From Ectocarpus siliculosus (Eukaryota > Sar > Phaeophyceae > Ectocarpales > Ectocarpaceae): 64,000 nt of DNA. How positions within the stretch are numbered: the stretch's first letter is position 1; each line of letters begins with the position of its first letter. Shown in pieces: positions 10,976-46,370 of the stretch. Below the pieces are notes generated by a model that saw nothing but the letters and a program-made list of their open reading frames with translations, had not been told where the DNA came from and made no database searches. Made by a program: the position numbers and the translations under genes. The stretch spans positions 1,378,984-1,442,983 of the forward strand of contig FN649731.1 in assembly GCA_000310025.1 (NCBI GenBank). Reading direction: 5' to 3'.

Positions 10976-11189
10976 ATGACTAGTGGCAAAATCGCGTGCT
11001 ACTGCGAAACATTGGCCACGTATCACCCATCCGTTGAGCAGGTCAGTTGGGTTGGTCTCTTGACGTGCTATGCATACGCACTACCAGTTTTGTGTAATTA
11101 CGGGTTGGCGGTTGTTTGCAAGAGAGAGGATCCTACCTCGCGCCTAGGGCACCCCGACGAACCCCCCCCTCCCCCTATCGGAACCTCCC

Positions 11190-11700
11190 GGTATGTGCCA
11201 TGGGGGTTGGGTTTTCGTCGCTTGGCAACGACGTTGTAAAACAAGCCGATCACTTCATGAGCTCGGCGACCAGGTTACCGCCTTTGTTTTTACCTTTGTT
11301 TCTTTTTTGGCGGTAGCCATGGTGGTTAGATTATGTTGTGCGGGGTCGAGAACCCTCACTTCGCGCAAAGGGGATGATCGCACCACGTCGTATTAAATTT
11401 GCCAAGCACTCTCGAGGCAGTCACACAGTGCTTATAACTGTCTCCGGAAGTGAAAGCACCAGAAATAAAACAACTCCTGAGTAACTGCTGACATCCGTAT
11501 GCAAGCAAGTAAGCACAAGATGCCGAACACCCTTAGCAGGATGCAGCGCACCCTTCATGCGACTCACCGCATACCTCACGGTGCTTCGCGCTTGGTGATG
11601 TGAGAGCCTGGTCCGGTGAGAACCCAGCGTGCTCCGTCCCGGCTTTGTAGGGATGCGAGGTCAGAGGTCTAACGACTACGGCATGCACAACTCTCCCCCC
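11190..11700 (-). repeat. SINE-like repeat, copy 1
   Basis: About 500 bases shared with 33872-34390, including gcaacgacgttgtaaaacaa, aagccgatcact and ggatgcagcgcacccttcat. Read on the minus strand, the right end starts gtgcatgccgtagtcgttag and later has ggttctcacc. These resemble pol III A and B boxes about 40 bases apart, which suggests a tRNA-derived head. Copies 3 and 4 keep mostly this head. Confidence 0.6.
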
Positions 11701-13140: not shown

Positions 13141-16100
13141 TTACTCCTGGAATAGATACCGCCAGACGCTGTCAAGGACGCTTTCCACAACTACCTCCAG
13201 GAAGCGGTTGTCCTCCGAACTAAGGTCGTGCACCACGATGTCACGCCTCTTGGCCACCCTGAGCCCTTGCCGGGAAGAAGGGTGAGTCCTTGATTCAGCA
13301 AACATATTCCCCGCCCTGTTCTGCAGCACCCGGATCATCCTGTCGGTGACTTCCGTGATTCTGATGAAGTAAAAATCGGCACCTATTTCGTACTGAAGGT
13401 GTATTGAAAGATTGTGCGATGGTAAGGAGGGGGGAAGGGGTTGGTGGCAATTGGTACGGGGTTGGTCAAGGGCGAGAGTGGGCCAAGACGTTGACATGGT
13501 GGGGTGCAATATTTTGTTATACAAGTACTCCGGCCGACGGCCCCCGATGTGTACAGTATTTAGGTAAGTATTCTGTGTTGTGCACAGCATGCCAAGGGAT
13601 GGTGGCAATAGTCGTTCGTTCATATCCGCGTGCCCGACAAAAACTATATTGTGTCGTAAGGCGCACGCCATGGGATGGTGGCCGGAGCCGTGCATCGTTT
13701 ACATTTGGGCGGGGGGGATGGAGGGATGAGTAGAGTCAGTGGTTCAGGCGGTGGAGGGGGAGGTGTGGGGGTAAAACAGCGGTGAGAGTTGTGGTTCATG
13801 AGTCCCCCGTTGCAGCTTCGGTAAATGGGGCATAGACTATGTACGCCATTTAGTTTCTGTGAAGGGAAGAGGTACAATATTGATTCATGTCTGTATTTAG
13901 CTGAAGCTGCTGATGAGGACCTTTAGTATATGGAGACCGATTCGCCTATCGGGACACCGCCTGATGGAGTCTCTCCGACAGGTGTCAAGCAAGGCTGACG
14001 CACACGTTGGGGTCTTCGTGAGCCGAAGAACCGTGCACAATACTTGACAGCCGGCGGTTGGTATCCGTGTACATTTTTTTGTGGCACGGTGCAAAGTAAC
14101 CTCGATATTCTTCCTTTCTAAGAGCTTATCGTGGCCGTCGCAGTAATTTTCTGGGCGAGGCCAGGCAGGGTCGCTCTTCTGGTGAGAACGGGGCTTCGGG
14201 TTGCTGGGGGGCGAGGCCGCAGCCGCGGATGATTGAGGTTTCGCTGGAGAGGACCTTGGCAGGCGTTCATTTTGGAAAGAATGGCTACTATTGACAACGT
14301 AAGGTCTGAGAAGGCGGGTGGTAGGTGGGTGTGGAGATTGTTTGTGATAGACCTATCGGCGATTCGGTGCACATTTGGCTCACAAATCTTGAACACCTTA
14401 ACAAAATCGGTGTGCACATTCCGTGCAAACCAATCTTCACCCCAACGGACCGCATTCAGCAATCCACCACCAACGAACGAATGTCGTTTTCAACCAACCA
14501 AGACGCACTGCTAGTGTAGTTGTTGTCGAATATGCACATGGCTACACAAAATATGAAATATTTGTCAAGACCAACGAACATTCAAAATCACAGATATTTG
14601 TTGCCTCAACTTTCCTCGGAGACCACCCAAGTTCAAGTGAATAGTTCATTGTTCGTTCGTGGATAGACCACCAAAGTTCCAGTAAATGGTTGAATGTTCC
14701 CGTGGATACTGCGTTGTCGCCGTGAGGAGATGCAAAGTGTTTACGTGTACACATATAACATGCATGTACTGCTGTACATTTACAAACATCGTGGTGCGAA
14801 TGGTGCGAAAAAGAAGTCTCCGTCAACAAAATGCTGTGCGGGTCAGTAGATATGAGACGGCAGGCGTTTCGCCAAGAAGGTAGAACCTACCCGCCGAGAA
14901 CAGAATGAGTGATGTAGCGTGACGTTCTGCGCCGGGAGCTCGTCCAATGAGACGCGCGTTTCTTGAAGAACGTGAGCGTTCAACGCAGATTCTCCGGGAT
15001 GCAGGCGGGAAGTGCCCGATTAGGGCGGACTCCGCGGTGGTGTAACACTCGAGGCGTGCGACCGCCGAGCCCGCGACAGGGAGGCCGTCGTGGAAAGACT
15101 TTCCTGGCCGACATCGCGAAGAGCTGAAGTCGATCGAAGTTGTTGGGCGGGCCAAGTATAGGGCCGAAGTTGACACGTTGAATTGAGGGGGGGGTCTAGT
15201 CTCCCCGCTTCGCTCACAGCGCTCGGGACTGCTGTCAGGCAGAGCACTCTAACTTTAGCATCACTTTAAAGATTCAAATAACCATAACTCTATATTGGTC
15301 TATCGCGCTCTGCCCGACCTGCAGTTGCTGGCATATGGCTGGAAGCGAAATCAGAGTGCGCAGAACAAGAAGCCTTTGGACAAATCAACGCTGCATGGCT
15401 GCATGCATGCACCGGTGATGCTGCGGGACCTGCGACTAAGTGTGCACACGTTCGTACGAACGAGGCGGGGCTGACAAATAGTGGCGCTCAAAGGGAAAAC
15501 TAGCACCAAAACCCGGCGGCTGCTTATGAGCAGATGCCCTGTATGCTGCTGTGGGGTCTCCCACGTACGTCGCTGGGGAATTCTGCAGCACTGTGAAGAA
15601 GACTAGTTGGGCACCGCCCCACACGCACACACCTGCAGTTTGTAGAGCAATTTGGACGGATCGTTTCCCTTCGGACAGCCGTTCGGGTACCTGTCCCCGA
15701 CCCCGGCGTGGTAGATGGAACCGTGGCAGGGGGCGTCGGCGATGAGGATACAAAGGCGGATTGTGCCCCTCCAGTCCAGCTCCGTCGCAAGCTTCAGCCC
15801 TCCGGCGACGTCCTCTGGGAAGTCATCGCCTGAAGTTGATAGAAATGAGGGAACGGGTTAGAGCCGGGGAAAGTACTACTATTTAAGAGAAATGCTGAAA
15901 AGCAAGGAGCGGGGCGGGGCGGGGTGCGTCACGGGCGAAGAATGGGAGGCGCAAGGAGACGGGAGGGGAGCACGGCAACGGCGGGGGTGAGGGCGATTCT
16001 GGTGATGCCATGCCATGAAGACCTCACCGGGGTTGGACTGTGACAGTACGAAAACAGGAGGGCTCACTGTCGTATTCCTGATCTTTCGAAACGGGAACCG

Positions 16101-19100
16101 ATGACTGCCGCCATGGACAAGCTAGATATGAAGGAGGAAAACGACGTGAACAGCCTACGTGTACCACATGTATTACAGCACGATGTGCAGTGGTGGGAAT
16201 GCATGCATGCACCTCCGTAGGCCTCAATTTTGTTGAGCTTGGCGAGAAGCTCGGGGAGATCTTTTTCTTTGTGGAAGTCGAACAACTCGTACCGTACCCT
16301 GTCTCCGAAGTCACGATACCTGCGGCGAGGAGTGGGGAGTTTTCGGCAGATCGCCTGGGGTGTGAGGAACAATTTGATACTGCCGAAGTGTGGTTCGGAA
16401 AGCTGACAAGGCTTGATCGGTTTTCTCGCGTTCACTAACCCATGTTTCGCGATGATGTTCTACGTATGTCCCGTAGACGTCGGATCAATCGCGTCAACAC
16501 CACTTGGTGCAGAGGTAGGTGAGAACGATACCAGGGCTAAGGCCATGAGACAGAGATGAAAAGAAGGGGGGGGGATCGATCGAAAAACTCTCGGCATAGG
16601 CAAATACAACGTCGCGATGGCACAAAAGCACACTCGAGACAATCGGGGCGCTAATAATCGGCCAGCGTGGGTACGGTGCTGGATGATCGCAACCACGTTT
16701 GTCTTGACACCGTACCCAACGAAGGCAACCCGCAGGTTGATGTTGGCGACGTCTTTCCTCGCTTGGTTGATGATGTCCAGCAACTTGGTCTTGGCCTGGT
16801 CGATCCAATATTGCATCTGAGAAGAAGGACCATCATGGAAAATAACGTGTAACATGAAGTTAAGCAGCAAGACTCGGCATTGACGTGTTTCGAGTTCGAC
16901 GTGCGGTGGTGTGCTTCGTGTTTGTCGTTTTTGTTGTAGCGACCTTGTCAAAATCAGATTCGAATTTTGAATAACTTACGTACGAACGGATCACTATTTA
17001 CCTCGCTTATCCTCTATTAGTGGAACACCAGAGCTGTATTCCCGAGGGGGGGGGGCACCCGTAAAAGATCCAAGTCTACCGGTACTCCTCAACGGTGAGC
17101 ACGACAACCGTTTTGATGGCTCGGCGACTTCTCCCTTCTATCTATCGCCCCGTCGACTCGTGAAAGCTGAAAGCAGTGCACGTCGAAATACGGCAGCTCT
17201 CTCACCGATCCTGTGCAGTCCATCACGAAGCATAAATCTATATGGGTCTTCCTAGAAGGGTTGTCTTGAAGCGCTTCCATTTTCGTTTTGGCCGTCTTGA
17301 CCTTGTCCAGACCTTGGTCGATTGCCGAGGTCAAGCCCTCGGGCTCCGTGTCCGCGTCAGGATGCAAGCCCAAGGCTACCAGCAGGTCGGGGGAGAAGAG
17401 GCGGCCGTAGTTGCCGTCAGAAGCCAGACCGCGGAGCCCCCAGAGCGATGCCCTGGCAACGCTGAGGTCGATTATGTCTCCCGTCCCTATCATGGCTTGC
17501 GTGTAGTGAGCGATCGCCTCCGCGTGGTTGCCGCTTGCTACGCAGTGGGCGGCGCGCTCTTCCAACAGCCTCTGGCGGAGGATCTGCACTGGTGTTTCCA
17601 GTGACGTCGCCATCGCGGCCCCGGGCCCCCCATCGGGGTGGTTGTTCTCGTAGGGCACGATCACCAGCTCGGCCGCATCCAGTGCTTCCCATGCCTCCCG
17701 AGATCTACCTTGCTGCCTTCGTTCCAGGGCGGCCAATTGGAGGAGGTATCTAAATCGCTGCAGGTCGTTCTTCGTGTTGCCTTTGTTGCGGTTTCCGCCA
17801 ATGTTCCCCCCGGCGGAGGTTAGCTGGATGCATTGCTGTATCAGGTTTCTGGCCTCGTTGATGATTTCAAGGTCTGGCTGCCCCCCCGTGGACACGGCGC
17901 TATTGCCCTTAGCTTCGGTGCACAGGGCGAGGTTAAACTTGCGGACAGCAAGCTGCCGGCAAAGAGCGGCGTGTGACATATTCTCGTCGTCGTCGTTTGC
18001 ATCGACATCCGCCCGTGCGGCTCTTGCAGCCTCAACGTCTTCCTCAAACTTGGCCTCGTCGACACCGTCATGACCACCGTGGTGGGCGCCCCGGTGCAGC
18101 GGTGAAGCGCCATTCGGTCGGTGAAGGGTGGCTGCGCAAAGCATCTCGGCGTCTTCGATGGCGACCTTGTAGTTGATTTCGGCGTCGGCGAAACACTCCT
18201 TCGCCTTTTCCATCAGGGTCTTGGTTTGGGCCGGGTTTTCCTCGTCCTTTGCGTGCGCCACGAGCTCTTCGGCCTCCATCGCGTAAGCATTGCCGAGGTT
18301 GTTGCGCACGATGCTGACTCCACTGTCGTTGCATCGTATTGTGAAGAGGGTCAGGGCCTCCCTGTAGATGACCTTCGCCGCGGCAATGTTTCCCGTGGCC
18401 AGGGTCGTGGTGGCGAACTTTACAACCGTGTTCATGGCCGGGGCGGCTTCCATGAGCTCCTCAACCTCGGGGCAGGATATGCGGTTGACCATATGAGGCC
18501 CTGCAACCTGTGTCACGCATGCATACGCACATACCCGAAAAAGAGGTTTGCGAGAATTGGCATCGCTATCAAGAGACGTGGGCATGCCGCTTGTGCAGCA
18601 GCGCCTGTAGAGGTTGAGCTTGCGAGAATGATGTGGGCACATTTCTGAGGTAGCTTTTCCATCACTGGGCTCCGAACCAACTCCCCAGCAAGTTTTGTTG
18701 AAAATCATAGCACATCGGCGGACACTTATGGTAGGGGAGTGTACGTATACACAGCGTGTTTGGCGGAGATGTCACAGCAGGGCCTCTCGGCCGGCCGCCT
18801 CTTGACAACATCATGTGCCGTCTCGAAGTCGAGTCGCAGCGAATTGGATGTCACGCATCCTGCTTGTTGGTGCGTGCGCTCGAGAGCAGGACTTGCTGAC
18901 AAATTTTCGAGATGCATGTGGCATGCGCGCAACAATACGTGTATGACTCCGCATCGGAGCCCTTTACCACACATGGCGATGACCGCAGGATACGAACTCA
19001 GGGAGCGCTCTAGAGAGGAGGTGTTGGAAAATCCGGACAGAGCGCGTCAGGCTTTTCGCCGACCAGCTACAAAGAGGTGGTGCAGCAAGCGAGAGGAATC

Positions 19101-22100
19101 ATACCTGCCGCGAAAAATCCATCCTGTTGAGTGCGTGCACGACGTAGATGAGCTGGTTGATCGGACCCACGATCCCGCCAGCCACGAATCGAGCAGTGAT
19201 ACCCGTGATGCAGGCGATTACGGTCAGCACCAGGGCCATGATGAGGCTCGCGAGGATAACCACCCGGGAAATCTGTGATTTCGTCCTGGAGAAGGCCTAG
19301 ATCACGTGCAAGCCGGAATGCCATGCCAAATGCAATGCCAAAGGGAACGAGGCGGGAAGGAAGGGAACGGAAAAGAGAAATATGGGTTCCACAGTTACAG
19401 CCACTGCTAGCAATACTGTTCTGAAACAAGACAAGCTCGCTCCTCCATCGCGTAGTTCGCCCTCGCGGGCTCCAGAGATACTGCATCTCGATCAAGGCTG
19501 GTCCCAGCAAATATCCCGAAATTGAACAATTTGCAGACGTATCCGAAACCGACCCTACCGGCTTCCGCAGCCCACCCTCCTCCTCCGCTCTCTCACACAA
19601 CTATTCCCTCCCTGAGCCACCGTACCTCCAACAGAACCGACTCGCTGACCGTCACCACGGCGATGAAGCCACCGTCGCCGCAGTTGTCGCTGGCAGTAGA
19701 CGCGCCGGCGCCGCTCACGGTCTCGTGCTTCCAGGCCAGGATCCACGTGCTCCCGTCCCTCGAGTACTCAGCGGAGCCGGAGCAGGCGGTGGAGATCTCG
19801 GTGACAAGATCAAGAAACTGTGATTCCTCCTCGCCGTTTTCGTCGGCGCCGTCTCCGAACTCCAAGTCCAGGATGTAGTTCACGCCGCCGTAGTTCAGCA
19901 GATCCCGGTGAACGGCCACCTGCCCGTCCCCGCCCGGGGCCAGCAGGTAAGCATAACCGTCGTCGTTGATGACCTTGAGATTCTTGATGGAGCTCTCCAT
20001 GTTTGTCGTGTTGATGTCCAGCCCAACCACGCCGGCCACGGTGCCGGCCGAGTTGAAGACCGGTGCCGCTGCCGTCAGGGTCAGCTCCTCCGAGTCGGCG
20101 TCCTCGTAAGGGTTGGTGAAGAACACCCCGGTGTTGCCGTTCTCGATGGCGCCTTGGTACCACAGTCTGCATCGCGGCTCGTACGAGTCCCCGGTGTAGG
20201 TGGTTTCATCCCAACTGTCGCATACCTGGTTGGCGTTGAAGAATTGGTTTTATTTTTTCACCCCGTTCGTGCCAACGTGCGAGGAAAGGAGGAGCGCGTG
20301 TAAGAATTATCGTGAACGATCATGTTGCAGCCCTGGCGTCGTCGAAGCCCAGGGCATTCGTGTGAATACCCGTTAGTGTTTCGAGATGAGCCCTCAACAC
20401 AAATTCGATACGAAGGGATTCCACCGGTAGGTGTGGTACTGAATATTTCGTTGTTCCCTGCGTGCTTACCCCATCCACGCCCCATTCCAGGTGACCAGTC
20501 ATATCGAACCCGGCGTAAGCCTGGAAGTTGATATCGGAGATCGTGCCAGCGGCTGGGAATGGATCGTCCAAGGCTGCGAGGTACACGAGGGGGTGCTGCC
20601 GTTGCATTCCCCGAAAGGGAACGTCCATGAGCGACGAGCGGTTGAGCAGGCTTTCCAGGGACCCGCCGGCCTCGGGCACCTCACCCGTAGGCAGGTCCGG
20701 GATGAACCTGGACGAGCGATTGGCGGCGACATTCATGTCTACTGACATGCACACAATTGAACACCCACACATCCTTTTGCAATCGCGTCGAAGTCATTTC
20801 CACGATAACTGATTACTTCCGGTGTTCGATACGCACGCTAGTTGGACAAGTCGAGAGTAGAGAATGGTGGTGGTGGAGGGGGGTCGCCCTGTAAAGTTGT
20901 CAGAGTTTACAGGCACAAAAAAAGCAGCTGTACGCACGATGATGTTCCAGGTGCATTGCGTTCTGCCAAGCACGCTTGTTATTTGACACCGAGTAGCCAA
21001 CATCATGCGAAACTGCGGCGTGTTGGGGCTATATCACGCCAGGACAACACCCCTGCCAACCACAGTTATTCGAGAGGAGCTTACTGCTGCACGCCTTGGA
21101 CGAAACTCTGCTTCTCTGGAAAACAAGTGTACCATAAGTCTTTTGGTTGAGGGTATGCAGATATGACAGACAAATACAGCCACTCGCCAAACACTATGGT
21201 CGAGGGTAGTGCTTGATTGTAGAAGTCCCGAATAGCTGGTCAAGTACGAGTCGACCGTCATCGTCTCCGGAACGGCCAAAACGGCCTGCTCCGCAAACGC
21301 TTGCAGTTGCAAAATGCTTTCCTCGACCCTTCCGAATTGCTCAGAAACGAACTCGGCTTTCGCCGCTGCAAGCTTGAGTAGATTTGCCTGATACCATAAG
21401 GGAAGAGAGAAGAGATAGACAGGGAAAGAGAGAGAGAGAGAGAGACGCAGGAAAATCAGCATATGTCAGGGCGACAAAGAAAACCCTCTCTCGTTCTCGA
21501 GACATTCTTCTGTTCTTATACTTGTATAGCAGAAGTACTTACGACGCATACATGTGGATTTTATTTTAGTCTTGGCGTTGCCGAAATTGAACTATTCTTG
21601 TCTGTTTCTACCCTACATGTATCATCCAATACGGCTTTTTGGCGGATGAAAATAGGCACATGCTGAGATCATTGCCCGTACAGCACAGCGCTGTTGAATT
21701 ACAGCGCATTACTGCTGTAGGATGTGTGTATTTAGTAAGATGCTGTAGTTTGCTGTATGCAATGATACATAGATGCGGTGTGATCAAGTGACCGTGGTAG
21801 AACGTAACATGTAGCGAGGAGATCACGAGGTGTTGCGATCCCCACCAGGCTCACTCCCAAGTATCCCTCTTCTACATACCGATAGTTTCAACTGAGCTAT
21901 CATAGACGACTCCGGTGCCACCGGTAGGAAAATAATCCAATAATGATATCTCACGACTGCAAACAGGCTAACCGCCAGTAGACGATCGTTGGGTACGGGC
22001 ACCTCGACACTGCACATTTCTACAAGCGTATGACTCCGTCGCGCTTATTGGCGAGATGACGGTGGGGCGCATGTCCGTAAAGACGCAAAACACTTGACTT

Positions 22101-22990
22101 TTCCAACTTTCTTCCGTATTCCCTGGTTTGTGTATCATCCCTGTTCGACCTCATACTGCAGACGTACGATCTCAAACGTTATCCACCCACTACCAGCACA
22201 CATGGCTCCAAGTTGGGGGATGGGATGCCACCTCCTGTTGCGGGTTGCATGCCATCCCCTGCTGACAATTGAACATCAACAATCAACCAATCAACACTAA
22301 CTACTGCGCCGTAAGCCGCATCATTGCTTCTCGCGAAACGATCATAGGTCCACCGCAAACCGCCCGCTACTCGTCTACTCGTCTATCGTGAAACGATAAC
22401 AGTTGCACCGCGTCACACGACAGCTGTCGCCTTTCTCTTCTTAACGATAACAGTTGCATCGCTTCACGCGACTGCTGTCGCCTTTCTCCTCCTACTGTAT
22501 GTAACTTGTAATATTGTACGAAGTACCTTTCGGCATGCTTCCCACACAAAGACGATTCTTCAAGAAGAGTTCAAATCGACACACGCAATGGATGAGTTAC
22601 AGCGTAGATGACGCGCAGGAGGGGGGGCGGGAGGAACCGCTCGGCGAAACGTGACGGCTTCCCACGCTTACCATAGGACGATACCGCCCACAGGTTTACT
22701 TTCAAACCGGTCCACCTACACGGCAAGACGGTAGTGTGATCCCAGTGGCCATCCCGCCACAGGGGCGGGCAGCCGCCGTACCCTAGTCCCCAACATTGCA
22801 ATCATGTTTTAGAATCGATCGCTGACCAGCAGAGAGCACGTTAACCAAGGACACCATACATCACGGTAGAAAACACCTCGTACCTGCTCAAGCTCAATCA
22901 TCTCCCCCCTTGTTTCGGCCCCCCAATCATCCACAGTCGTGAGGGTAAAGTAAACCTGAATGATGAGGATGAGCACGATACCCGCCAAGT
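13141..22990 (-). CDS. Gene B: Cache/TPR/vWA transmembrane receptor, start exon unresolved
   Basis: Sensor of the same plan as gene A, with its 3' end in view. Exons: 22990-22884 (membrane helix 1), 21387-21188, 20707-20470, 20225-19626 (Cache, PRCRLWYQGA and GVVGLDINTT), 19296-19105 (membrane helix 2, MALVLTVIACITGI, and HAMP-like linker), 18507-17206 (TPR, SIVRNNLGNAYAM; vWA start DLCFVMDCTGS), 16816-16716, 16319-16213 (YRDFGD), 15829-15633 (LIADAPCHGSIYH) and 13392-13141 (FYFIRITEVTDRMI; stop TAA). All phases agree and 1098 codons close in frame. The vWA resembles those of alpha-kinases such as Dictyostelium VwkA, but the gene ends with no kinase domain. The intron after 21188 has a GC donor. 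The start codon lies in an unresolved upstream exon. Confidence 0.85.
14620..14712. repeat. 45-bp tandem duplication in last intron of gene B
   Basis: Two diverged units, each starting gaccacc(c/a)aagttc and ending cgtggata, lie head to tail within the 2.2-kb last intron. Confidence 0.6.
21182..21187 (-). other. GC splice donor (gcgagt) in gene B
   Basis: Same position as the GC donor of gene A: HSVW is split as TG|G across the intron, so the donor must be gcgagt. Confidence 0.7.
22392..22492. repeat. 51-bp tandem duplication in intron of gene B
   Basis: Two units begin aacgataacagttgca and end gctgtcgcctttctc, with a few differences. Confidence 0.75.
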
Positions 22991-31671: not shown

Positions 31672-34600
31672 ATGGCAACCCCGTCGAGGGGTGTGTCCAG
31701 AACCTTTTCCGCGCAATTCGGGCGCCCGGAGGAACGCGAGGTTCATGGGCTTGCGAGGAAACTGACTTGCGCGGTGTGCTCCGCAACAGTTGTAGGCGTG
31801 CTCCTGATTCTGCTTGGCCAAGTCCTTCTTACCCTCGCAGCCGTTCCGGAGTGGGGGTCGAGCACGAGAGAGGTCATGGTCGAACTTGAGAAGGTAACGA
31901 TGGGCAATGATAGCGGTGCCGTTTAGAGGTTTTCTTGTTGACACCCTCCTGTGACTGCTGCAGGTAGAACATGCAACTACCGCTGTAACATACACACACA
32001 CGCCGCCCAGTGTGTACCTCTATCGACCCAACAGATATGTTTCTTTATTACAGAGGGAGCGGATCCGGGGCTGTAAAGAGCGACCTTCGTAGACTGTCTT
32101 TGTCTATTCCTTTCGTGGAAACTGAGAGGTTGTCATGATCCCTCTCTCGAAGGGTTGCCATTCCACCTTCAACCAGGAGCGCTGTTACGTCACCTCTAGG
32201 ACTTTAGTCAGTGAAGGAGTATCCCGCCAGCGATGATATTGTAAAGTTTCAACTCTACGGGGGCGAAGAGCAAAAAGTCCGTCATGTTTCAGGTGCATAT
32301 AGTAGCGTTCGGTTAATTGACGTTAGCTTCTGTTTCAAGACCATGGCCTTTGGTCGGGAATCAGGAGGGCGAAGTGGGGGTCCCGTTGTTGCGGTTCCCT
32401 GCTTGGCGACATGTCCTGTTCCACATTTATGCAGCGGTTGCAGAAAGGTAGTCCTTTGATCGTATGCATTATTCCTGCTAGACCGACCGGGGCGGGGTAG
32501 TAGTTTTTTGGGTTGAAAAAACAGTACCTGCAGCAGGCTCGTGCGTTGTTGCGTTGATACCATTGGCTCGTTTACCACACAGCAGCAGTGTTGTGTTCTG
32601 GGGGCACCATGGTGATTTATTGAGAGGAGGGGTGGTGTTCATCATCATCAGGCAACTCAAAAAGCGTGTGATGGGTGACCAGACTAAATATCACGGAGGG
32701 CACGGGTCGCACACTAAACCCTCGCGCACAAGTGTAGAGAGGGGTACAGCAGCACTTACTGCACCAATGGTGGTGCGTATGTAGCAGCGTCAGCGTGTGT
32801 TTTTATTATTAGCATCGACCACGCTAACCGGCTGACCAATGACGTCAGTGTGTGTGTGTTGGTGGTGTGATGCTGCCTCTCTCCAAGAAGAGGCCGCTGC
32901 AGCCAACTGCTGCCGCTGCGCTGCAAAAAAACTAAACGCTTATCTCTCCTCTCACTTGCTCCGCCGATAGCTACAACCAGTAGGCAAGGCCACACCCTGC
33001 TCCCGCCGTCTCGCCCTCTCGCTGTGGTGTGTGTGTCCCTCCCCCTTGTCCATGCCTGGCTGCGTGTGTGTGGTGTCGCGTGTAAGGCTACGCCCCACAG
33101 GCCGCTGCTGCCGCTCGCTGCAAACACAAAAACAACCGAGATCAACAACAACAACAACCAAACGTGTATCTCTCCTCTCGCTTCCCCCGCCGATAGCTAA
33201 CAGCAGTAGGTATAGGGCACACCCTGTTCCCGTCTCGCTCTCGCCCAAAACTCTCGCTGTGGTGTGTGGCTCCCTCCCCCCTCCCCCCTTGTTCATGTCT
33301 GGCCCCGGGTGATGTCTTTTGCGTGAGCCTACGTACGTGTGGTTCCAAACAAGCCTCCTCCTCCACCTCGGGGACGCGTGAATCCGACATTTTTATCAGC
33401 ACAGATGCTGTGCTATCTCGACGCACCGACCACGGATTGAAAAGGTAGCAGTTGGGACACCTTGGGCAAAATATTCTTGTTGTGCGCAAGTCTAAGATTG
33501 CAAGTTGGTGCCTAGATGGTGAAATGGGCTCCAGTCTGCTGTGATGTTGTTGTCACGGACGACAGACAGACAGACAGACATGCATGGCTGATTCCCCCCC
33601 CCCCAATGGTCAAACGACTAAGGCATGNNNNNNNNNNNNNNNNNNNNNNNNNNNNNNNNNNNNNNNNNNNNNNNNNNNNNNNNNNNNNNNNNNNNNNNNN
33701 NNNNNNNNNNNNNNNNNNNNNNNNNNNNNNNNNNNNNNNNNNNNNNNNNNNNNNNNNNNNNNNNNNNNNNNNNNNNNNNNNNNNNNNNNNNNNNNNNNNN
33801 NNNNNNNNNNNNNNNNNNNNNNNNNNNNNNNNNNNNNNNNNNNNNNNNNNNNNNNNNNNNNNNNNNNNNNNCCCCCTGGTGTTTGCCATCGGGGTTGGGT
33901 TTTCGTCGTTTAGCAACGACGTTGTAAAACAAGCCGATCACTCCGTGAGCTCGGCAACCAGGTTACCGGGTTTTTTTGCTTCTGATTTTTGTTTTTGCGG
34001 CAACCATAATGGTGGTCGAGTAGATGATGTTGTGCGGGGCCGAGAACCCTCACTCCGCGCATAGGGGATGATCGCGCCACGTGTGTGTTAAATTGATCAA
34101 GCACCCTCGAGGCAGTTTCACAGTGCTTATAACTGTCTCTGGAAGTGAAAGCACCAGAAAATATATAAAGTCATACGCAGCTATCATCCGTACGCAAGGA
34201 AGTTAGCACAAGATGCCAAACACCCTTAGCAGGATGCAGCGCACCCTTCATGCGACTCGCCGCATACCTCACGGTGCTTCGCGCTTGGTGATGTGAGAGC
34301 CTGGTCCGGTGAGAACCCAGCCTGCTCCGTCCCGGCTTTGTAGGGATGCGAGATCAATGGTCTAACGACTACGGCATGCACGACGATGAGACCCCCCCCC
34401 CCCCCCCCTCAGTCAACTTTTTTTTTTTTTGCGCGCATACCATTACGTGCAATCCACAGTACCTCTACCGGGCCGCTCTGGAAAAGTAAAAGTAAACACT
34501 ATTAACATCTCGTGAACTATAAATTCTCGTAGCACTGCAATAGGGCACCACTTGTAACCTTTGGGTAATCCTTACGATGAATAGTTGGCCAGGTTGTGCA

Positions 34601-37600
34601 AGGTGCACCTTTATTAGAGGTTGCGCACTGTTTGCAAGTCGGTTCGGGGCCAAGCTGCCAACGGTAATGCAAGGTGCCCTTTCGTGGAGGTTGGCGCACT
34701 ACTGGCTGTGCACAAGCCGGTTAGGGAAGCCGGTTAGGGAGCAGGTTGCCGATGATATTGTAGTGTAATGTATACTTTTCTTGAAGTTTGGCACTACATA
34801 TGAACAATCCGACTATGTAGCGAGCAGGTTGCCGATGGTAGTGCGAGGTGTACCGTTTCTTGGAGGTTGTGCACTTTTTTAGAAAGTAAAACACTTTGTA
34901 CCAGCCGGTATTTCAACACGGTTGCTTTTTTTTTGTTTGAGCGGATTCTATTCCCTCTGCACCACTTGTTTTTTGCATTTCATTTTTTCTTTCCCCTGTT
35001 TTTTTTATGTGGTTGTATCGAATCACTACAATATTTTCGTCAGTACACATGTACCGAGCAAAAGCCCAGAAACAACAGTACCTCGTGCCTGTTTTTCGCA
35101 CCTTGCTACTAGCTCCAGGTTACACCCATCTCCGCCCGCGGCTTATCATCTGGAGCCCGGGGTCGAAAGCATCCGGAAGTTACATGGACAAAGAGCGAGA
35201 AACAGACAATGTACATATGTCAAATGAAAACAACACGTACCATCTCGAAGTATAGTACTTTTATTTTTATTTGATTTTCCCCCCACGACAGCATGCCCTC
35301 GCCCACAACCACCAACGATCGATCACGCAGATGATCCAGAATCCCCACAGAAAACTGCCGTTATTGGGTGATGAGGGGAAAATGACGTAGCCAGAGACAG
35401 CAGCTACACGTTGCGACAGCAGTACTCGCCAAGCGCACTTGTAGAAATGACCGTCCTCTCCCAACACGAAATAAAGCACTCCCCCCCTCGCCGCCCCCAA
35501 AGCCACAGTTCTGATCAAGAAAACGAGCTGTCTGAGACAGAGCCAGCTGGGACAGCCATGTACTCCAAACACAATGAACCTCTACTCTCCTACACCAAAG
35601 ATCACACCTCCGCCCTCCCCTCCCCATGAGCCACAGTTCGTAGAAAGAAAAAAAAGGCCCGGGCCGCGAAGACAAGAGGTAGCAGTGACAGACTCCAAAA
35701 CTCTTGCAGACACAGTACGAAAACACCTGGCTCTCTTCCGACGTGCTAGCGAGAGCAGCAAGCACATCACAGCATTCTACGACCTAGAAGAAAACATGGC
35801 TGGCGAATGATTATAGTTCGTGAGATATCTGCAGGTCTCCCGATGTGCATTTGAAAGCCTGTCAACCCCCTGCTCATCTCTGTCTGCAAAACAGGCGAAC
35901 CTGGAGAAAATTTCTGAGGCCAAGGCCGGGACTATCGAGGAGCACTTCGGTCGGGTGAAGGAGACCGTTTTGCAGCTGCAGGCATTTGGAGAGCAGACAG
36001 GACTCATCGTGCCGGAGACGATGACGGTCGATGCGTACGTGGAACAGCACTCGGGGCTGCTAGAGCCGGAACCCCTGGACTACAAGCACTCGGTCTGGTG
36101 AGCCCCTTGGGCGACTCTCGTTGCAGCAGGCATTGTTGCAAAGCGTACGCCTATCTTCGTGGGAACATAACCTTGGAAAAATATCTCCCCAAGATTTTCT
36201 CGCAAGAATTGTTTGGTGGGACATTTCGTTGCACTCTCTCTGGGGGAAACATGTTATTGTTGAATTGAAAAAGGCGGTTGTTGTTTGCCACAATCTCGTG
36301 CATAAACAGAATTGTTCCATTGCTGCCCCAACGGCTAAGATGGGCACCAACCCGACAGCCGATGACAATCATGCACGTCTCTCACTACGTAGTGAGGGTA
36401 CCGGGGCCAAACCTTCAACGTTGTTATCTGCACTCGAGGACCTATATCGGGTGCAAGCGTATTGGGTGTGGGGTGATTCGGTCAAGAGATACGAAGCGTC
36501 GCACACGATCAAGCTCTGTTAGAACAAACCCCTGCCTTTTTCCCTACATGGCAGTAGAGTGCTTTTGCGAACGGTCCATCAACAGACAGCAACTGTTGGT
36601 GTCACCAGCGATGCTTTTGTCAAAGGATAGAAGCATCCCACAACTGCCTACTTCCATCCGAACGAGGACTGTTTGTGGAGGTTGCAGCGTCGAGGGAAAG
36701 TATGCGCTTTGTCAGTAGAGGCCTTGTAGCGCGAGATCGAGATGCATGAAAACCACGTTTGTGAGCACCATCTCCCCATAGAGATTTCGGTGAACAAGCC
36801 CAGTAAGCTACATGCTTCAGTTGCGAATCGCTACAGCTCGACACAAGCATCACATGCTCAAAATTGCCAGAGCCTACCGATATAGCGTGTGAGTGGCGCA
36901 TGCCTGAACAGCAGCTGAAGGCAGCCAGAAAGAACTAAAGGCCTCGTAATGTGTTGCTAGATGCAGCGGTGGCCCGAATTTGTACCAAACTGCCGGATCT
37001 TGTGGGTTCGTTGGCGCATCGACGCCGTTCTCCACGTGTTCATCCCCAATGGGCAAATGAACTTCCCGCGAATCATGCTGGTTTTCCGGGCGTTTCGTAG
37101 GCCTAACATGTGGTAGAAGTTTGACCCACCACACGAACTGATTTTTCGATCTACGGCCCAAAACATTTATCAAAACCACGCTTGCCCCGTTGTTTTTATA
37201 GTCTTCTGCATGCTGAGTTGCTGTTGAGCCATCCCTCACTCTACGTTCAAGTTTGGGTTGTCTTCTTCGAAACGCCATTCCTGGAGGTATTTTTTCCGTG
37301 AGGAGCCGGGTGTAGCCCTGACATGCGCTCGACTTAGAAAAAGCAGCAACAATCATCATGTGGTACGTCTCCTCAAAGGAAGCCTGCATGTCCACCGGCG
37401 TTCACCATTGGCAGGTAATCGACTACTTTTTTTTAGCGGGGCGCTGATGTTTGAAACCAATCAAGCCTCCTCGCGATGTTCCACACCCTGCCCCGTGCTC
37501 TTAAGGTTCATCCCGGAGTTCGGCGCGGAGGCGCCAGAGGCCGGCAGTACCGTGGAAGGTCTCCTCAACCGCTCGTCGCTCATGGATGTAGCGTTTCGCG

Positions 37601-40600
37601 GAATGCAGCGTCAGCACAGCCTTATCTTCATCTCGGCCTTGGAGGACCCTACTCCAGAAGTGGTGTCCTATATCGACTTTCAGTCGTACCCCGATTTTAA
37701 CATGTCCCACGAGGGCTATCTCAAGTGGGGCGAAAACGCGGTAAGCGCAAACGAAGAATACACCAATGTCATGAGTAGGACCTGCCTCAGCAACTACAGT
37801 AGTTGCGCACGGAGCAATGACGCTCAAACGTATATTCGTTCAATAGGAGCGTTGACGATTCTCACCCGTTTCTCGCCGCCGTTGAGGGTTGATATTTGAT
37901 TTCTCCGTATTCTCCTTTTGTCTCTGTTTCTTCCGCTCTAAGGCTGAAAGTTCAGTACTTTTGGGATTTGCGCTAACCGTTTCATGTACATTTGCACAAG
38001 TTCGAATGTCCGATCTCGTCTAACCTAGTGTTTGGCATTGTTAGCTGTCTCTGAGCGAGACGAGAGAGGCTTCAGAAGGACAACGTCCACACGAACCATT
38101 ATCCTTTTCACATGGCTGCGCTGCATGCCACCTCTTTGCGCCGCTCTCTAGCGTGCGCAACGTGACTAGCTTGGATCTGGTGACTCCTATTTAGCGCTGC
38201 TGTCGCAATGCAATATCGCATGTAAATTTTTGCCAGTTATCGCACTGGAAGAAACATTCGTTTGCGCGTTCACGATGAACTTCAAACATGCCACCGCCTG
38301 TTTTGTGCGTACTCCTGTTGAACCGGACCTTTGTTGCAACGGAAATGATCAGACTTGTGACTACCGGTACGCCACGCCTGGTACCTTCGAAGGGATGCAC
38401 TTCGAGCCGCGCTGCAGGCCCTGGTACCAAGACGCCCTCGACGAGGGCAATACTGGGTGCATCATCACTAACCCGTATGTTGACGCACACTCCTTCAAGC
38501 TCATTCTAACGGGTGCGGCACCCGTGTTCAACCCCTCCGGCAACCTTCTGGGAGTGGTCGGCTTGGACGTCAACTCTTCGGATATCGAGAGCACCATCAA
38601 AAACTTAACTATTATCGACGGGGAGGGCTACGCCTATCTGCTGGCCCCGGGAGGGGAAGGGCAGGTAGCCGTTCACAATTCCTTGGAGGACTACGGGCAA
38701 GAGCAGTACGTATACGATCTCGAGTCTGTGGTCGAGGAAGAGTTCGAACCCATTTTGACAAAAATGAACGAAAACTGCAATGGGTCGAAGGAGTACACGA
38801 TGAACGGGGAGACATGGCTGCTGGCGTGGAACCACGAAACGGTAAGCAGCTCGTCAACGGTAGCGGCGGCAACTTCGGGGACGGATGCTGATGAAGTGTG
38901 CGATGGCTTTATCGTTGTCGTTACCGTCAGCAAGTCGGCCCTCTTGGAGGTGAGTGACAGGTGTTGTTTCTGTCGTCAAGAGATGGCCTGGCGTTCTTTG
39001 TGCGCAGACATCACATTTGTATGAATCTGTCGGCGTTGATTGCTCTCCTATACCAATCGCTCGCGACTTACCTGAAACGTGCACAATATGTGACTGGTCG
39101 TGGGTCTTGTTTCGTTTCTCAACCTCCTACTGTCTTCTGTACGATAAAAGCGATGCGCCCACGTGAAGCTGGCAACCAGCATAGCACAGCGATACATATG
39201 GTCGTTGAGCTGGATCCGGTTTGAATTCAAGAGTCATGGACGGCATCCGTTTCGGCTTTTTCCACATCAGACTTGCATTACACATTGGTCACTGAGTTCA
39301 CCTGACCTAGGCCGAAGCCTGGAGCCAGTGTCCGTCGTCTGCGATGCCTGTGATGCTCGTGATCATGGGTTGGATATTGTAAGGGGAATTTCCAGCCTAT
39401 TTTTCGTATCTTCCAGGTTGTTTTCCATGTTGGAACCACACTTTTCTGTGCCCTGAGCCGTGTTGCCCATAGATCAACCGCTCTGCGTCCATCGGATGTA
39501 TCTGTGATTTCCGTTGCTAAATTACCGTGATAACTGGCATTGTCATCAGGCATTCTCAGAGACGGAAGACGATATTCGCTATTTCGTCGCCCTGGCGAGC
39601 ATCATCATGGCGGCGGTGCTGCTGGTGATCGGCTGCTGCACCGGCGGATCCGCCCGCATCTTGTCAACAAGCATTACCGAGCCCGTCAATCAGTTGGTGG
39701 ATGTTGTTCATGCATTGAACCGGCGTGATTTCGCCGAGAAGGTACGTGTGCACACATGCCTCGAATTAGCACCGGTGGCGTTCAAATGTAGCAGTAGCAA
39801 GTGTTGACGTGGAAATTGGTCGAAACAGAGGCCGCTCGCCGTTGAAAGCGCAAACGTAAACTTTTGACTCCTCGAGCGCTTGTGTGCTATAACATACCTT
39901 CTCAATATTGTTCTCCATTTGGGTTTCGCAGTGCGCACCAACACGTCTTTGAGACCGTTTCGTTTTCGTGGCATGCACTTGTGTTGAAGGCCCCCGGGAC
40001 GTGGATTGTAAACGACGTGACGTCGCCCGAGGTGGAAGAACTGATGACGGCGTTCCAGGCCATGACCACCGTCGTGAAGTTCGCCAACATTAGGGTAAAC
40101 CACGGCGACATTGACGTGGCCCAACAAAACTACATTGAAGCCAAGGTCCTCTTCCTGAAGCTGGGAAACGAGCGGGGAGTTGGCATCGTGCATAACAACT
40201 TGGGCAGTGTGTACACGCTCCAGGCGCGCGAGTTTGCTAAGCAGGCCGCCGCGGAGACGGACAAGGCGAAAGCTGACCTTCTCATGGAAAAGGCGGACGA
40301 AAAGTTTTACGATGCAGTGACGAACTATCAGGTAAGCCATCAGGACTGGGGCGCAGGAATTGCCGCCTCGTTTTTCGTCCTCATTCGAGTGTTGTCTGAC
40401 TCGAATCTATTTCTGACGCGCTGGCAGCACGCCAACCCACCCGACGGAACTCGTGCATCGTTTCATGTCTTTTTTCGCTACTGGGGTGCTTTGCATCCCT
40501 GCACAAACTTGACAATAACGTTGTATTTTTCCTACCCACGTTTGAACGTGTTGTTTATGTGTTTTTAGGTGGCGATCGATGACGCCTTCTTGCTGTGCGC

Positions 40601-43600
40601 AGGACAGGATCAGATTCACGAAGACGACAGCGACAACGGCGGCATCGACGACTACGCCAACAGAGGAGGGGAGTTCAAGGAAGGGCAGCCACGACAGTCT
40701 GGTTCAAGGCCCGACGTCGAACAGGGGTCTGGAGTTGCAGGCGGGTCGAGGATCATGAGTAACCATGGCTATCGACACGTGAGCGCTCGCAGGGCTAGCA
40801 GCACCTACAGTGTCTCTCGCCTATCCTTGGACAACCCCAACTCGGCGCTCGCTCTCGACCTCCAGCTAGCGAACCGGAAGCTAAACCTTGCTTTATGCCT
40901 GGCCACCAAAGGCTTCAGCGGTGTGCCCTTGGGGAGACCCCCCGACCTCAACGCGGTCAATCACGCCAGACGGCTCCTAAACGAATGCGCCACGCTGGCG
41001 GCGAACAGGAACGATCCCAAAGGTGACCAGCGACATGTGGAGTGCCTCCTCGAAGTCGCGAAGCTCGAGCGCCAGGCGGGTCGCAGCAAAGAGGCCTTTG
41101 AGGCCCTGGATACTGCCCAGCGCGTGGTGATGGATTCCCAAGGTGTTGGCGGCGCGGGCAGTGCCCATCGCACGGCCGGCCTCGGCAACCCTGTCAGTAT
41201 TGGAATCGCCGTCCCTCCGCCGGAAGGAGTCTCACTGTCCGCGCCCTTGGCGGCGCTTAGGCAGCAGGTCCTGGTGGCGCGTGGGGAGCACTGCGTCGCT
41301 TCCGGTAAACCCAATGAAGCCATCGAGCACTGGACGGATGCTGTCGTCGGTTGCGGAGACAGAATGGACGTGGTTGCGGTACGAGGTGCATTGATGGGTC
41401 TCCGCAAGCTGGCCGAGAACGGGTTGAAGTTCCCGAAGACGCTCATGGATGCCCTGGGCTTTTCAGATTTGGAGCCAAACCGCACGGTGGGCGTCGATCA
41501 GCTCGTGGCGGCCGTGGACGAGGCCCTGGCAAAGCTAGACTCCGTGGCGAAGAAGTCCGGGACAGCGGTGCCGGCCGTGGAGGCGACCAAAGTTGACCTG
41601 TGCTTCGTCATGGACTGCACGCGCTCGGTAAGTCGACGAGGAGCGCTACGCTGGTGTCATTTGGCTATTGTCTTGGTCGGAGGTGTTATAGATATGGCCG
41701 GATGGAATCAACTAAGGGACCCGCTCTCGATTATCCCACGCCGTTGTGCTTCGTGCGGTCGATGTACCTTAGTTTTATGCTTGGCGACGGAAGTCGTTGG
41801 AGTTTGCTTGGGAGGAATAACACCTTCTTACCGTCTTTCCTGGTTGTCGAGAAGGCCCCCACAATGAATACATTACGTATAGAAGGGAGACACTGCACAG
41901 AAGATTTGGATGCCAAGTCAGCGCGCGCATGGGGGGTGTTGTTGCCGTGCTATTTTCTTTTGTTCAGGAGAGGTGAGGTGAGACGTAGGAATTTCTGGAA
42001 TTGTTGGGTGTGTCTCGTACTCGGGTTTTTCCAGCCTGACCACCACGTGCACAGAGCTGACCGTGCGGACCTGCGGTGGAACATGTCCCTGCTGCTTCAT
42101 TGTTGTTTTTCTCAATTCGTCTGCGAATGCCAGATGCAGAGTTGGATCGAACAGGCAAGAAGCAAGTTGATTGACATCATCGAGCAGGCGAAGAAGGATG
42201 TGGACAACCTTGAGCTCCGCGTGGCCTTCGTAGGGTAAGTCAAACGCATGAAATATGGTCGAAGTAGTGGAATATGCTACAGATAACACCAACAAGGCAG
42301 CAGGCCCGACATTGTTGGGCTTGTCCTCCCTGTTCTGTGGACGTGTTGTACGATTTTGAGACGGTATTGTGTTTTCGTAATTTTCTAGGCCCATCCGATG
42401 GTTGTTTTCATTGGCTGCCGAACTCAGCTTTTCCCGGGCTGTGCGTCGGATTTCGACATTGATGTACACGTATCCCTTGCCTTCCGCAGCCAGCAGTAAC
42501 CAGATCTCAGGGAAACAACAAACAGGTATGATTTGACTACGTCATGGTACCACTGAAGTCGTACCAAATCCGTCCATTTTTTTGCTATTTTTCCCTCTCG
42601 TTGAACGGCGGCCGCTCACAGGTACCGAGACTTCGGAGACAAAGAGCGATGCGAGGGTCCTTACGACTTCCACACGGAGGACAAAATTCCCCAGCTTCTC
42701 GAGAAGCTGAATCGCATCAAGGCTACCGGAGGTATATCTATGCGCTTTGGCCAGTTGTCGTCAGCCTACACCCCGTACCCATCCGGGGGATCGGGGTGCT
42801 TGTTGCGAACAGCTGCTGCTGCTATATTCAATGTTTCGTCGGGTAGTCCACAACCCCCCGTCCCCCCTCCCCACGTCCCTCTCCTTCCTGTCTCCCTATG
42901 GTATTCGGTTTTTCTCCGGCAACCTAACATCACGTCACTCTGCATCACCGACCTCCACGCTGCCCACACCATAACCGTACACCGGTAGGCAAAGACGTGC
43001 CCGAGGACATTGCCGGAGGGTTGCAAAATGCAACTCAACTGTCGTGGGAGAGCCCCATCCGCCTATGCATGCTCATCGCAGACGCGCCGTGCCACGGCTC
43101 GATGTACCATAGCTGCAGGGACAACTACCCGACGGGCTGCCCGAAAGGACTCGATCCGTCCAAGCTGCTCTACAAGTTGCAGGTGTGTGAGCAGCCAAGT
43201 GCAACACATGTATACAAATTCCCACGACGGCGATCATTACTGCGTGTGGTGTGTCGTGTCGTGTTTTGAACCCTTGTTATCCGTGCTCTTGACCCGGGTT
43301 TTATTCGTCTCTTGGATACTTCGGGCTGCTGCTCCTCTGCGCATGCTGCTGCTGCTGCTGCTGCTCATGCTCATGCTGCTGCTTCTGCTTCAGCAGCAGA
43401 CTTTTGCCACGCTGCATGAATGAATTATGTCGCCCATGGCAGACCTGCTCCAGACTCCATTCGTCTTGAAAGAATTCCCGCCCTAGTTTGTTCATTTTCG
43501 GGTGCGGAGACAGTTGTCTTCCATTTTTCTGGTAAGGAGGATAGCCCGTGTGGGTGCGAAGAATAGCTACTGTGAGAGTTACGGTTGAGCATCTTCTGAA

Positions 43601-44059
43601 AGGATGGATGTGGGCCGAATGATACTCGTTCCTTCGCCGGAGTTTCAAGATGAGCACTGCGTGCTGTAGACGTTGCCTGGTTTGTTGATTATACCGACAA
43701 GGGGCGTTTCGTCGAAAACGTATTCCACACGTTGCACGTCCGTTGCCTCTCGTTCCGTTGGCGCCCCCGTCTCAATTTATGCGTCATCCCGTTCCCCTTC
43801 TCTCCCCTTCCCTCCCGTTCACAAAATCAACCCGCAAACACCAACAATTTCCAGTACGAGCTCGGAGTGGATTTCTACTTCGTCCGCATCACTGGCATCA
43901 CTGACAAGTGAGCAACTCTCGTTCGTCACGGTTATGCCGGCATCGCGTGCCTCAGACACATGATGCATTTCGCGATCGATAATCACATGGGTAGAAGCGC
44001 CCTCGACTTGGCACGTCTCTGTCTGCCGGTCCATCTGTCTGCGTGCGTGCGTGCGTGCG

Positions 44060-44091
<32 letters not shown>

Positions 44092-44416
44092 AGTCTAGCT
44101 GTTTGTCTCCTCTGCCTGTTGACCTGTTTTTTTGTTCGTCTTTGTGTCTCTAATCTCTTCATCCGATCATTTGCGCGGTGTAACTCATTGACCGATCGAC
44201 CACTCCAGAATGATCAGTGTCCTTCAGAACACGGTGACGGGATACACTTCGGATCGCAACCACGCACGCCGACGGCCTCTCAAGGGCACCGCGAACACCG
44301 AGCCAAAGTTCATGGTGCATGACCTAGGCTGCAACGATCACCGTTTCCTTGACATCGTGGTAGAGTCCGTCAAGGCAAGCGCTGGCATCAACCTCCGCAT
44401 CGAAGTTTACTGTTGA
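31672..44416 (+). CDS. Gene C: complete Cache/TPR/vWA transmembrane receptor
   Basis: Exons: 31672-31893, 35895-36097, 37506-37740, 38353-38949, 39550-39741, 39990-40331, 40569-41627, 42134-42234, 42622-42731, 42989-43182, 43855-43907 and 44209-44416; 1172 codons close in frame with stop TGA. Protein: membrane helix about 33-58 (VVGVLLILLGQVLLTLAAV), outside helical part 75-142, double Cache about 143-419 (EPRCRPWYQDA, TGAAPVFN, GVVGLDVN), second helix about 430-452, HAMP-like EPVNQLVDVVHAL, TPR from about 484 (GIVHNNLGSVYTL), vWA about 940-1171 with DCTRS (946-950), YRDFGD, IADAPCHGSMYH and ITDKMI. No alpha-kinase domain follows. An upstream in-frame ATG at 31516 exists; 31672 was chosen because MATPSRG begins the conserved-looking cytoplasmic tail, so the start is uncertain. 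The first intron is 4 kb and full of repeats. The metal-site Gly of A and B is Arg here. Confidence 0.87.
32870..33340. repeat. Tandem duplication in first intron of gene C
   Basis: Two units of about 225-245 bases, each running from ccgctg(c) and tatctctcctctc through ccgccgatagcta, cacaccctg and ctcgctgtggtgtgtg to the cccccttgt(c/t)catg block. Confidence 0.75.
33628..33871. other. Assembly gap (244 N)
   Basis: Run of N within the first intron of gene C. It is flanked by a poly-C stretch plus part of a SINE-like head on the left and by SINE-like copy 2 on the right. Confidence 1.
33872..34390 (-). repeat. SINE-like repeat, copy 2
   Basis: Closest relative of 11190-11700, inserted in the first intron of gene C. 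It ends in a long poly-C run beside gacgatgagac, as the other copies end near C-rich tracts. Confidence 0.6.
34580..34920. repeat. Degenerate tandem repeat in first intron of gene C
   Basis: Three to four diverged units of about 80-105 bases built from caggttgccgatg, gtgcaaggtg(c/t), tggaggttg and gcact. Confidence 0.55.
35574..35810 (+). other. Unrecognised open frame in first intron of gene C
   Basis: A 78-codon frame that is Pro/Lys-rich and then charged helical (TVRKHLALFRRASESSKH). No family was recognised, and it ends 85 bases before exon 2. Probably chance or a transposon fragment rather than an alternative exon. Confidence 0.2.
36150..36720 (+). mobile_element. Relative of the AATCTTG element, in intron 2 of gene C
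   Basis: Reverse-complement relative of 26000-26290. Shared blocks are ttgttcca(t/a)tgctg, caacccga, tgcacgt(c/a)tctcacta, ttgggtgtggggtgattcg and gtcgcacacga. The left end has ccaagattttct near 36200; the right end was not found. Confidence 0.55.
36874..37395 (-). other. Unrecognised 173-codon frame in intron 2 of gene C
   Basis: Open on the minus strand with a plausible protein composition (RRRQPKLERRVRDG, FVWWVKLLPHVRP). No known domain. Its place beside a DNA-transposon remnant suggests a transposon protein fragment. Confidence 0.3.
43340..43402 (+). repeat. CTG-rich microsatellite in intron of gene C
   Basis: Interrupted (ctg)n, longest pure run seven units. Confidence 0.8.
44041..44090 (+). 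repeat. Tetranucleotide microsatellite in last intron of gene C
   Basis: (gcgt)n passing into (gcct)n, about 45 bases. Confidence 0.85.
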
Positions 44417-46133: not shown

Positions 46134-46370
46134 TCAACAATGCAACAAGTCATCATCTTCCGTATGAAAGGAAACAAGCCGCCGAACAGCCTTACAAGGC
46201 AGAATGCAGCGCACCCTCCACGTGACTCGCCGAATGCCTGGCGCTTCGCGCTTGTGATGTGTTAGTAGTCTGGTCGGTTGAAAACCGGGCGTGCTCCGTC
46301 CCGGGTAGGGATGAGAGGTCAATGGTCTGAAGACTACGGCATGCACGGCTATGAGTACACCCCCCCAAAC
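46134..46370 (-). repeat. SINE-like repeat, copy 3
   Basis: Keeps gcagcgcaccct, gcttcgcgctt, gtgctccgtcccgg, gacta cggcatgcac (tagged as gactacggcatgcac) and a C-rich right edge; it lacks the left part of copies 1 and 2. Confidence 0.6.

Follow-up and report, generated by a model that had tools for sequence, protein, structure and literature searches.

A predicted family of membrane proteins in Ectocarpus siliculosus that joins an amino-acid-type double Cache sensor to a C-terminal vWA domain

The stretch of Ectocarpus siliculosus DNA analyzed here (contig FN649731.1, hereafter C6, positions 1378984-1442983, within a 189-Mb genome of 492 contigs; its 64,000 nucleotides are called the window below) contains a gene, termed gene C, whose product is predicted to combine a front half resembling bacterial amino-acid sensors with a von Willebrand factor A (vWA) domain in place of an enzyme. 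The gene lies at 31672-44416 on the + strand and, in the exon model, has 12 exons encoding 1171 residues, which are arranged in the order of first membrane segment, double Cache domain, second membrane segment, HAMP-like region, tetratricopeptide repeat (TPR)-like region, vWA domain, and stop codon. The same combination is predicted to define a small family with at least four paralogues, and, as far as sequence can tell, the architecture of this family is secure. With moderate confidence, we regard the family as an amino-acid receptor that would signal through the docking of a partner at the metal ion-dependent adhesion site (MIDAS) of the vWA domain.

The gene C model was constructed from open frames, splice signals, and homology with the paralogues, and its splicing is that predicted from them. 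All 11 introns are GT-AG and phase-consistent, and both the start region and the stop align with those of paralogue E. A preliminary description of this DNA had called the gene complete at 1171 residues, and the rebuilt model returned the same span and length. The exons are as follows.

31672..31893, + strand, exon 1: start codon, N-terminus, and first membrane segment (hydrophobic window at residues 40-58, by hydropathy); start region aligned with that of paralogue E
35895..36097, + strand, exon 2: residues 75-142, probably a helical stalk after the first membrane segment
37506..37740, + strand, exon 3: residues 142-220, first part of the double Cache
38353..38949, + strand, exon 4: residues 221-419, core of the double Cache, with the motif F237....R242.W244 Y245 / Y262.D264 / D292
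39550..39741, + strand, exon 5: residues 420-483, second membrane segment and helix 1 of the HAMP-like region
39990..40331, + strand, exon 6: residues 484-597, helix 2 of the HAMP-like region and TPR-like repeat 1
40569..41627, + strand, exon 7: residues 598-950, linker, TPR-like helical repeats, and start of the vWA domain with MIDAS D946-x-T948-x-S950
42134..42234, + strand, exon 8: residues 951-984, vWA
42622..42731, + strand, exon 9: residues 984-1021, vWA
42989..43182, + strand, exon 10: residues 1021-1085, vWA with PED (E1026) and ADAPCHG (D1052)
43855..43907, + strand, exon 11: residues 1086-1103, vWA
44209..44416, + strand, exon 12: end of the vWA domain and stop codon, whose position is common to paralogues B, D, and E

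When the same genome was searched with the gene C protein, at least 43 matches to exons were obtained, 39 out of 54 candidates having been scored; these matches group into five genes, i.e., gene C and the four paralogues below.

206..5322 of the window, - strand, paralogue A: 7 exons, from the first membrane segment to the first vWA exons
13141..22988 of the window, - strand, paralogue B: 10 exons, from the first membrane segment to the stop, with the architecture of gene C
C6 near 698,000-707,000, paralogue D: modelled
Contig C2 near 8,610,000-8,618,700, paralogue E: modelled

B, C, D, and E have the same architecture through to the end, and A was followed only as far as its first vWA exons; the start exon was not located in the models of A, B, and D. 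The later vWA exons of A were not found in the 9,189 bases downstream (the flank of C6 below 1379185), a stretch that includes a run of N, and because this run follows the last exon of A, so that a gap and a loss are indistinguishable, A is not called a clear pseudogene. The intron after exon 2 is GC-AG in A, B, and D and GT-AG in C and E.

The relationship of the front half to bacterial chemoreceptors was evident from profile searches. The gene C product matches MCP-like_PDC_1 with 32.7 bits, above the Pfam cut-off of 27, and dCache_1 was matched by all four scanned copies (C, E, B, and D; A was not scanned), with a best E value of 2e-13. When a profile of the Cache, second membrane segment, and HAMP-like regions of the five copies was compared with the PDB, 17 distinct sequences were found at E <= 0.01; PctA was at the top (1.3e-18), and the best matches to the Cache domain were sensor domains of chemoreceptors. 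PctB and PctC, which we take to be amino-acid receptors like PctA, were also among the matches. The exon model, Pfam, and hydropathy together bear out the earlier view that a double Cache between two membrane segments is joined to a C-terminal vWA domain.

PctA is an amino-acid receptor in whose pocket R126 hydrogen-bonds the carboxylate of the bound amino acid; amine receptors contain residues that correspond to W128, Y144, and D173, and Y121 and Y129 are named as well (PMC10104139). Amino-acid pockets of this type are summarized by the motif YxxxRxWY ... Y ... D (PMC9901441). In our alignments the pocket positions fall on F237, R242, W244, Y245, Y262, D264, and D292 of gene C, and R242, W244, Y262, D264, and D292 are invariant in all five copies. 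For this mapping, D146 was assumed to belong to the PctA pocket as well. The position of PctA Y121 is occupied by tyrosine in A and B and by phenylalanine in C, D, and E, and that of Y129 by tyrosine in four copies and by phenylalanine in E. By these alignments the Cache domain carries an amino-acid-binding motif, which the preliminary description had not seen, and its ligand is likely to be an amino acid. Another possibility is that the same architecture serves a ligand other than an amino acid, the pocket having drifted to another small molecule, or that it has no direct ligand. Sensors of amines, uracil, and purines do derive from the amino-acid type, and those of amines are set apart mainly by three positions (PMC10104139, PMC12415202), and the phenylalanine that replaces Y121 in three copies would agree with such a drift. 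The five residues invariant across the family, however, speak for retention of the original ligand type, while even among eight bacterial methyl-accepting chemotaxis proteins (MCPs) with a related Cache, taken out of 28 matching plasmid records, three have no aspartate at the second position beyond the tyrosine, and one of these three is without the last aspartate as well (as judged by eye). We therefore consider a different ligand rather unlikely and continue with an amino acid as the preferred one.

Two strong hydrophobic windows, at residues 40-58 and 431-449, flank the Cache domain of gene C. The Cache region of C holds six of its eight N-glycosylation sequons, and the Cache-region cysteines, four of which are invariant in a four-copy alignment and three in a five-copy alignment, likewise fit a location outside the cell. 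A and D each show one borderline hydrophobic peak in the part predicted to be cytoplasmic. The Cache domain is therefore placed, as the likely topology, outside and the vWA domain inside. If both domains were extracellular, the product could instead be a channel accessory subunit similar to alpha2delta or to CACHD1, the latter of which also contains a vWA domain. In alpha2delta-1, dCache_1 with the amino-acid motif and a vWA domain do occur in one protein (PMC9901441), and the PDB search matched alpha2delta-1 weakly (E 0.015). The vWA domain of alpha2delta is, however, inserted in the Cache domain and extracellular, whereas that of gene C is C-terminal, following the second membrane segment, the HAMP-like region, and the TPR-like repeats, and the two membrane segments of C enclose its Cache domain. 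We give hardly any credence to an accessory subunit of this kind.

The region after the second membrane segment was compared by hhalign with the HAMP domains of the eight bacterial MCPs. The probability was 60% without the membrane segment and 83% with it; in the former comparison 49 of 54 template columns were aligned, and among 30 column shuffles those that returned a match reached at most 6.4%. A HAMP reference had also been sought in an archaeal genome, where no match was found, and the plasmid MCPs served instead. We read this region as a diverged HAMP domain with a longer connector. For the part that follows, the predicted model of exon 7 consists of successive helices, although at low confidence (mean predicted local distance difference test score, pLDDT, 53). 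Foldseek matches to this model include the TPR domains of sNASP and kinesin light chain and the TPR proteins BtubC and RapH, none of these at E <= 0.001, and a profile search of the region against the PDB gave one TPR protein (E 0.034).

The C-terminal domain of the gene C product matches VWA_4 with 40.6 bits (Pfam cut-off 27), and VWA_4 was matched by all four scanned copies. Of the residues expected of a MIDAS, DxTxS and the D of ADAPCHG are kept in all four aligned copies, and the PE of the middle loop is present in C, B, and D. A profile of the vWA domains found no vWA structure in the PDB. The domain is well conserved, with 60% identity between C and E.

A receptor without an output enzyme would relay its signal in an unfamiliar manner. 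The claim that gene C ends right after the vWA domain with no kinase or cyclase is upheld by the exon model, by Pfam, and by the stop shared among four copies. Pfam matched neither a kinase or cyclase nor an MCP signalling domain in the product. NCBIfam likewise gave no MCP signalling domain; its sole match, to a model of diguanylate cyclases, is weak (14.1 bits, where the cut-off is 325) and covers residues 425-490, around the second membrane segment and HAMP-like region, not a catalytic part. The stops of B, C, D, and E come directly after the vWA domain and are no more than three alignment columns apart. The alpha-kinase domain (PF02816) was matched seven times in the genome, on contigs C1, C27, and C55, and not on C6 or C2, in a search that reads exons separately and may miss short ones. 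Because the stop is common to four copies and their contigs have no alpha-kinase match, the lack of a kinase appears to be ancestral to the family rather than an artefact of one gene; absence of a catalytic domain by ancestry, not by truncation, is most likely.

The competing idea, in which gene C derives from a vWA alpha-kinase gene by truncation or misjoining and the kinase exons lie further 3', draws on two points. Its vWA motifs are associated, as in the preliminary description, with vWA alpha-kinases, and the genome has alpha-kinase matches, one of them beside a vWA frame. A six-frame search of the genome can, moreover, overlook a domain that is spread over several short exons; PF25106 (VWA_4), for instance, was unmatched although gene C carries it. 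Against these stand the alpha-kinase-free contigs, the common ending of B, C, D, and E, and comparisons between copies of the frames 3' of their stops, in which C was covered over 10,000 bases, B over 7,740, D over 2,655, and E over 2,815: one of the six gave a weak 32-residue match, between C and B (E 9e-4), and the other five gave none. No continuation into an alpha-kinase, the outcome that would have contradicted the preliminary description, was seen; we rejected it as a candidate, and a truncated gene seems very improbable. The label of an alpha-kinase-type vWA domain fared less well. DCTxS and ADAPCHG are indeed in the sequence, and their connection, like that of VWA_4, with the Dictyostelium vWA alpha-kinase VwkA is a putative one, but the genome's own vWA domain beside an alpha-kinase differs: the frame in question (C1 near 3677400-3680700) matches VWA_2 best, with 23.6 bits, below the cut-off of 27. 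Nor did the family vWA profile match open frames of at least 25 residues in six alpha-kinase loci (best E 7.7). vWA alpha-kinases are described in oomycetes, and diatom alpha-kinases without vWA (PMC3019232); no mention of Cache was found in PMC8307928.

Selection was estimated from nonsynonymous (dN) and synonymous (dS) divergence by the NG86 method, and the ratios between C and E are rough because dS is close to saturation. For these two genes, dN and dS were 0.47 and 3.2 in the Cache domain, 0.66 and 2.4 in the TPR-like region, 0.48 and 1.9 in the first membrane segment and stalk, and 0.33 and 1.8 in the vWA domain, while the second membrane segment and HAMP-like region gave a dN of 0.37 and no computable dS. 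dN is thus far below dS in the four of five regions where dS could be computed, and those regions are constrained. The Cache domains of A, B, and D are also constrained (dN 0.03-0.05 against dS 0.09-0.15). Because the match to PctA is so strong, the order recurs in five copies (in A up to the first vWA exons), and C and E differ far less by dN than by dS in those four regions, the domain order is more than chance.

A number of results weigh against this reading of the family as a signalling receptor. Gene C scores 34.1 bits with dCache_1, below the Pfam cut-off of 45, and structure prediction for exon 4 gave no usable model of the Cache core (mean pLDDT 34.7). In paralogue E, a third, weaker hydrophobic peak lies inside the Cache domain and makes the topology less clear. 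The HAMP score of gene C is 12.3 bits (cut-off 25), HAMP appeared at E <= 1 in only one of four scanned copies, and a profile search of the second membrane segment and HAMP-like region against the PDB found no HAMP structure, so that the earlier term "HAMP-like" is favored by the profile-profile comparison and not by Pfam or PDB. The TPR assignment stays weak: TPR_12 scores 20.1 bits against a cut-off of 30.1, and the helical model, with TPR proteins among its matches, is of low confidence. In the vWA domain, the middle-loop PE is missing from the E model, and the MIDAS has T in place of the second S. In A, B, and D, the second membrane segment and HAMP-like region has a dN of 0.21-0.22 against a dS of 0.11-0.21 (95-96 codons), so that dN roughly equals or exceeds dS; diversifying selection, relaxed selection, or noise may be responsible. 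Finally, one in-frame stop interrupts the TPR region of paralogue D, whose model is otherwise open. These ratios in the recent copies and the stop in D point to a possible decay of parts of the family.

The ratios among A, B, and D and the stop in D would suit a static scaffold or adhesion factor in which the Cache and HAMP domains are nonsignalling relics, as would the divergence of the HAMP-like region and its longer connector. The constraint between C and E in four of five regions, with dS near saturation, and the ligand motif kept in all five copies do not, and we hold a scaffold to be improbable. A signalling receptor remains the account that we prefer.

Comparison with known systems places the family between several of them. 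Gene C shares with chemoreceptors of the PctA type, which belong to dCache_1AA, the Cache sequence, the amino-acid motif, and the order of membrane segment, double Cache, membrane segment, and HAMP (in gene C a HAMP-like region) seen in the eight related MCPs; unlike them, it has no MCP signalling domain, bears TPR-like repeats and a vWA domain, and is eukaryotic and multi-exon. Unlike vWA alpha-kinases such as VwkA, it has no alpha-kinase domain and would be membrane-bound with a sensor. In front the product would function as a dCache_1AA chemoreceptor does, and behind it may serve as a docking adaptor. By its predicted domains, it falls outside the MCPs, the vWA alpha-kinases, and the alpha2delta proteins alike, as one defining feature of each is absent. 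Plasmid-borne bacterial vWA proteins, read by eye in four of five matching records, have DxTxSM and DA[PS]xH in all four and the middle-loop PE in three, but none of the four has a Cache domain in the same frame. A scan of genome contigs with two short peptides, which is insensitive and gives no evidence of absence, found one locus in an archaeal metagenome-assembled genome, whose vWA domain (32% identity) sits in a 1459-residue frame with no Cache domain by eye. No viral relatives were found when vWA and Cache-HAMP profiles were compared with viral contigs. The family might accordingly represent a separate class of eukaryotic receptors, with the front of an amino-acid chemoreceptor and with ligand-gated, metal-dependent docking by the vWA domain as its sole output, without an enzyme, channel, or chemotaxis domain. 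We propose this class tentatively, finding it nearly as easy to believe as to doubt.

Upon the computed features, namely gene structure, domain order, shared stop, amino-acid motif, and HAMP similarity, we infer a topology, a ligand, a relay, metal binding, and the recruitment of a partner, which could be combined as follows. The membrane-distal pocket of the Cache domain would take up an L-amino acid, or a close analogue, from outside the cell, and the resulting movement would, by analogy with bacterial chemoreceptors, pass through the second membrane segment to the HAMP helices. With no enzyme predicted, the most likely route to a partner runs via the TPR-like repeats and the MIDAS of the vWA domain; these would dock a cytoplasmic protein through an acidic residue on a MIDAS-type metal, and ligand binding would alter that docking. 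One guess at the partner is a trans-acting kinase. Gene C is followed 3', in the same orientation, by a gene that resembles Ser/Thr kinases, with exons in 55217-58661 (+) and a Pkinase match of 35.3 bits at 58059-58661; further kinase-like motifs were read by eye in its exons. A Calothrix plasmid carries a vWA gene of distant relationship that directly precedes a protein kinase gene. Both neighborhoods are nothing more than hints at such a kinase.

Elsewhere in the window, similar stretches at about 11150-11670, 33910-34360, and 46170-46370 (+) probably represent an interspersed repeat. EsV-1-7 repeats (PF19114) are abundant in the genome, with at least 150 matches (150 of 150 scored, out of 880 first-look candidates), and the EsV-1-7 family is described as expanded in brown algae (PMC7457493).

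In the literature searched, no description of a receptor with this architecture was found; one candidate paper, PMC7848895, is unrelated. If the proposed reading is true, a multicellular alga would wire a bacterial-type amino-acid pocket to a nonenzymatic output, differently from the known uses of that sensor, and the ligand prediction is directly testable on one purified domain. Because the morphology and reproduction of Ectocarpus are reported to be influenced by bacteria (PMC4765120), it is plausible that an amino-acid receptor of this kind would serve as a channel for contact between bacteria and the alga.

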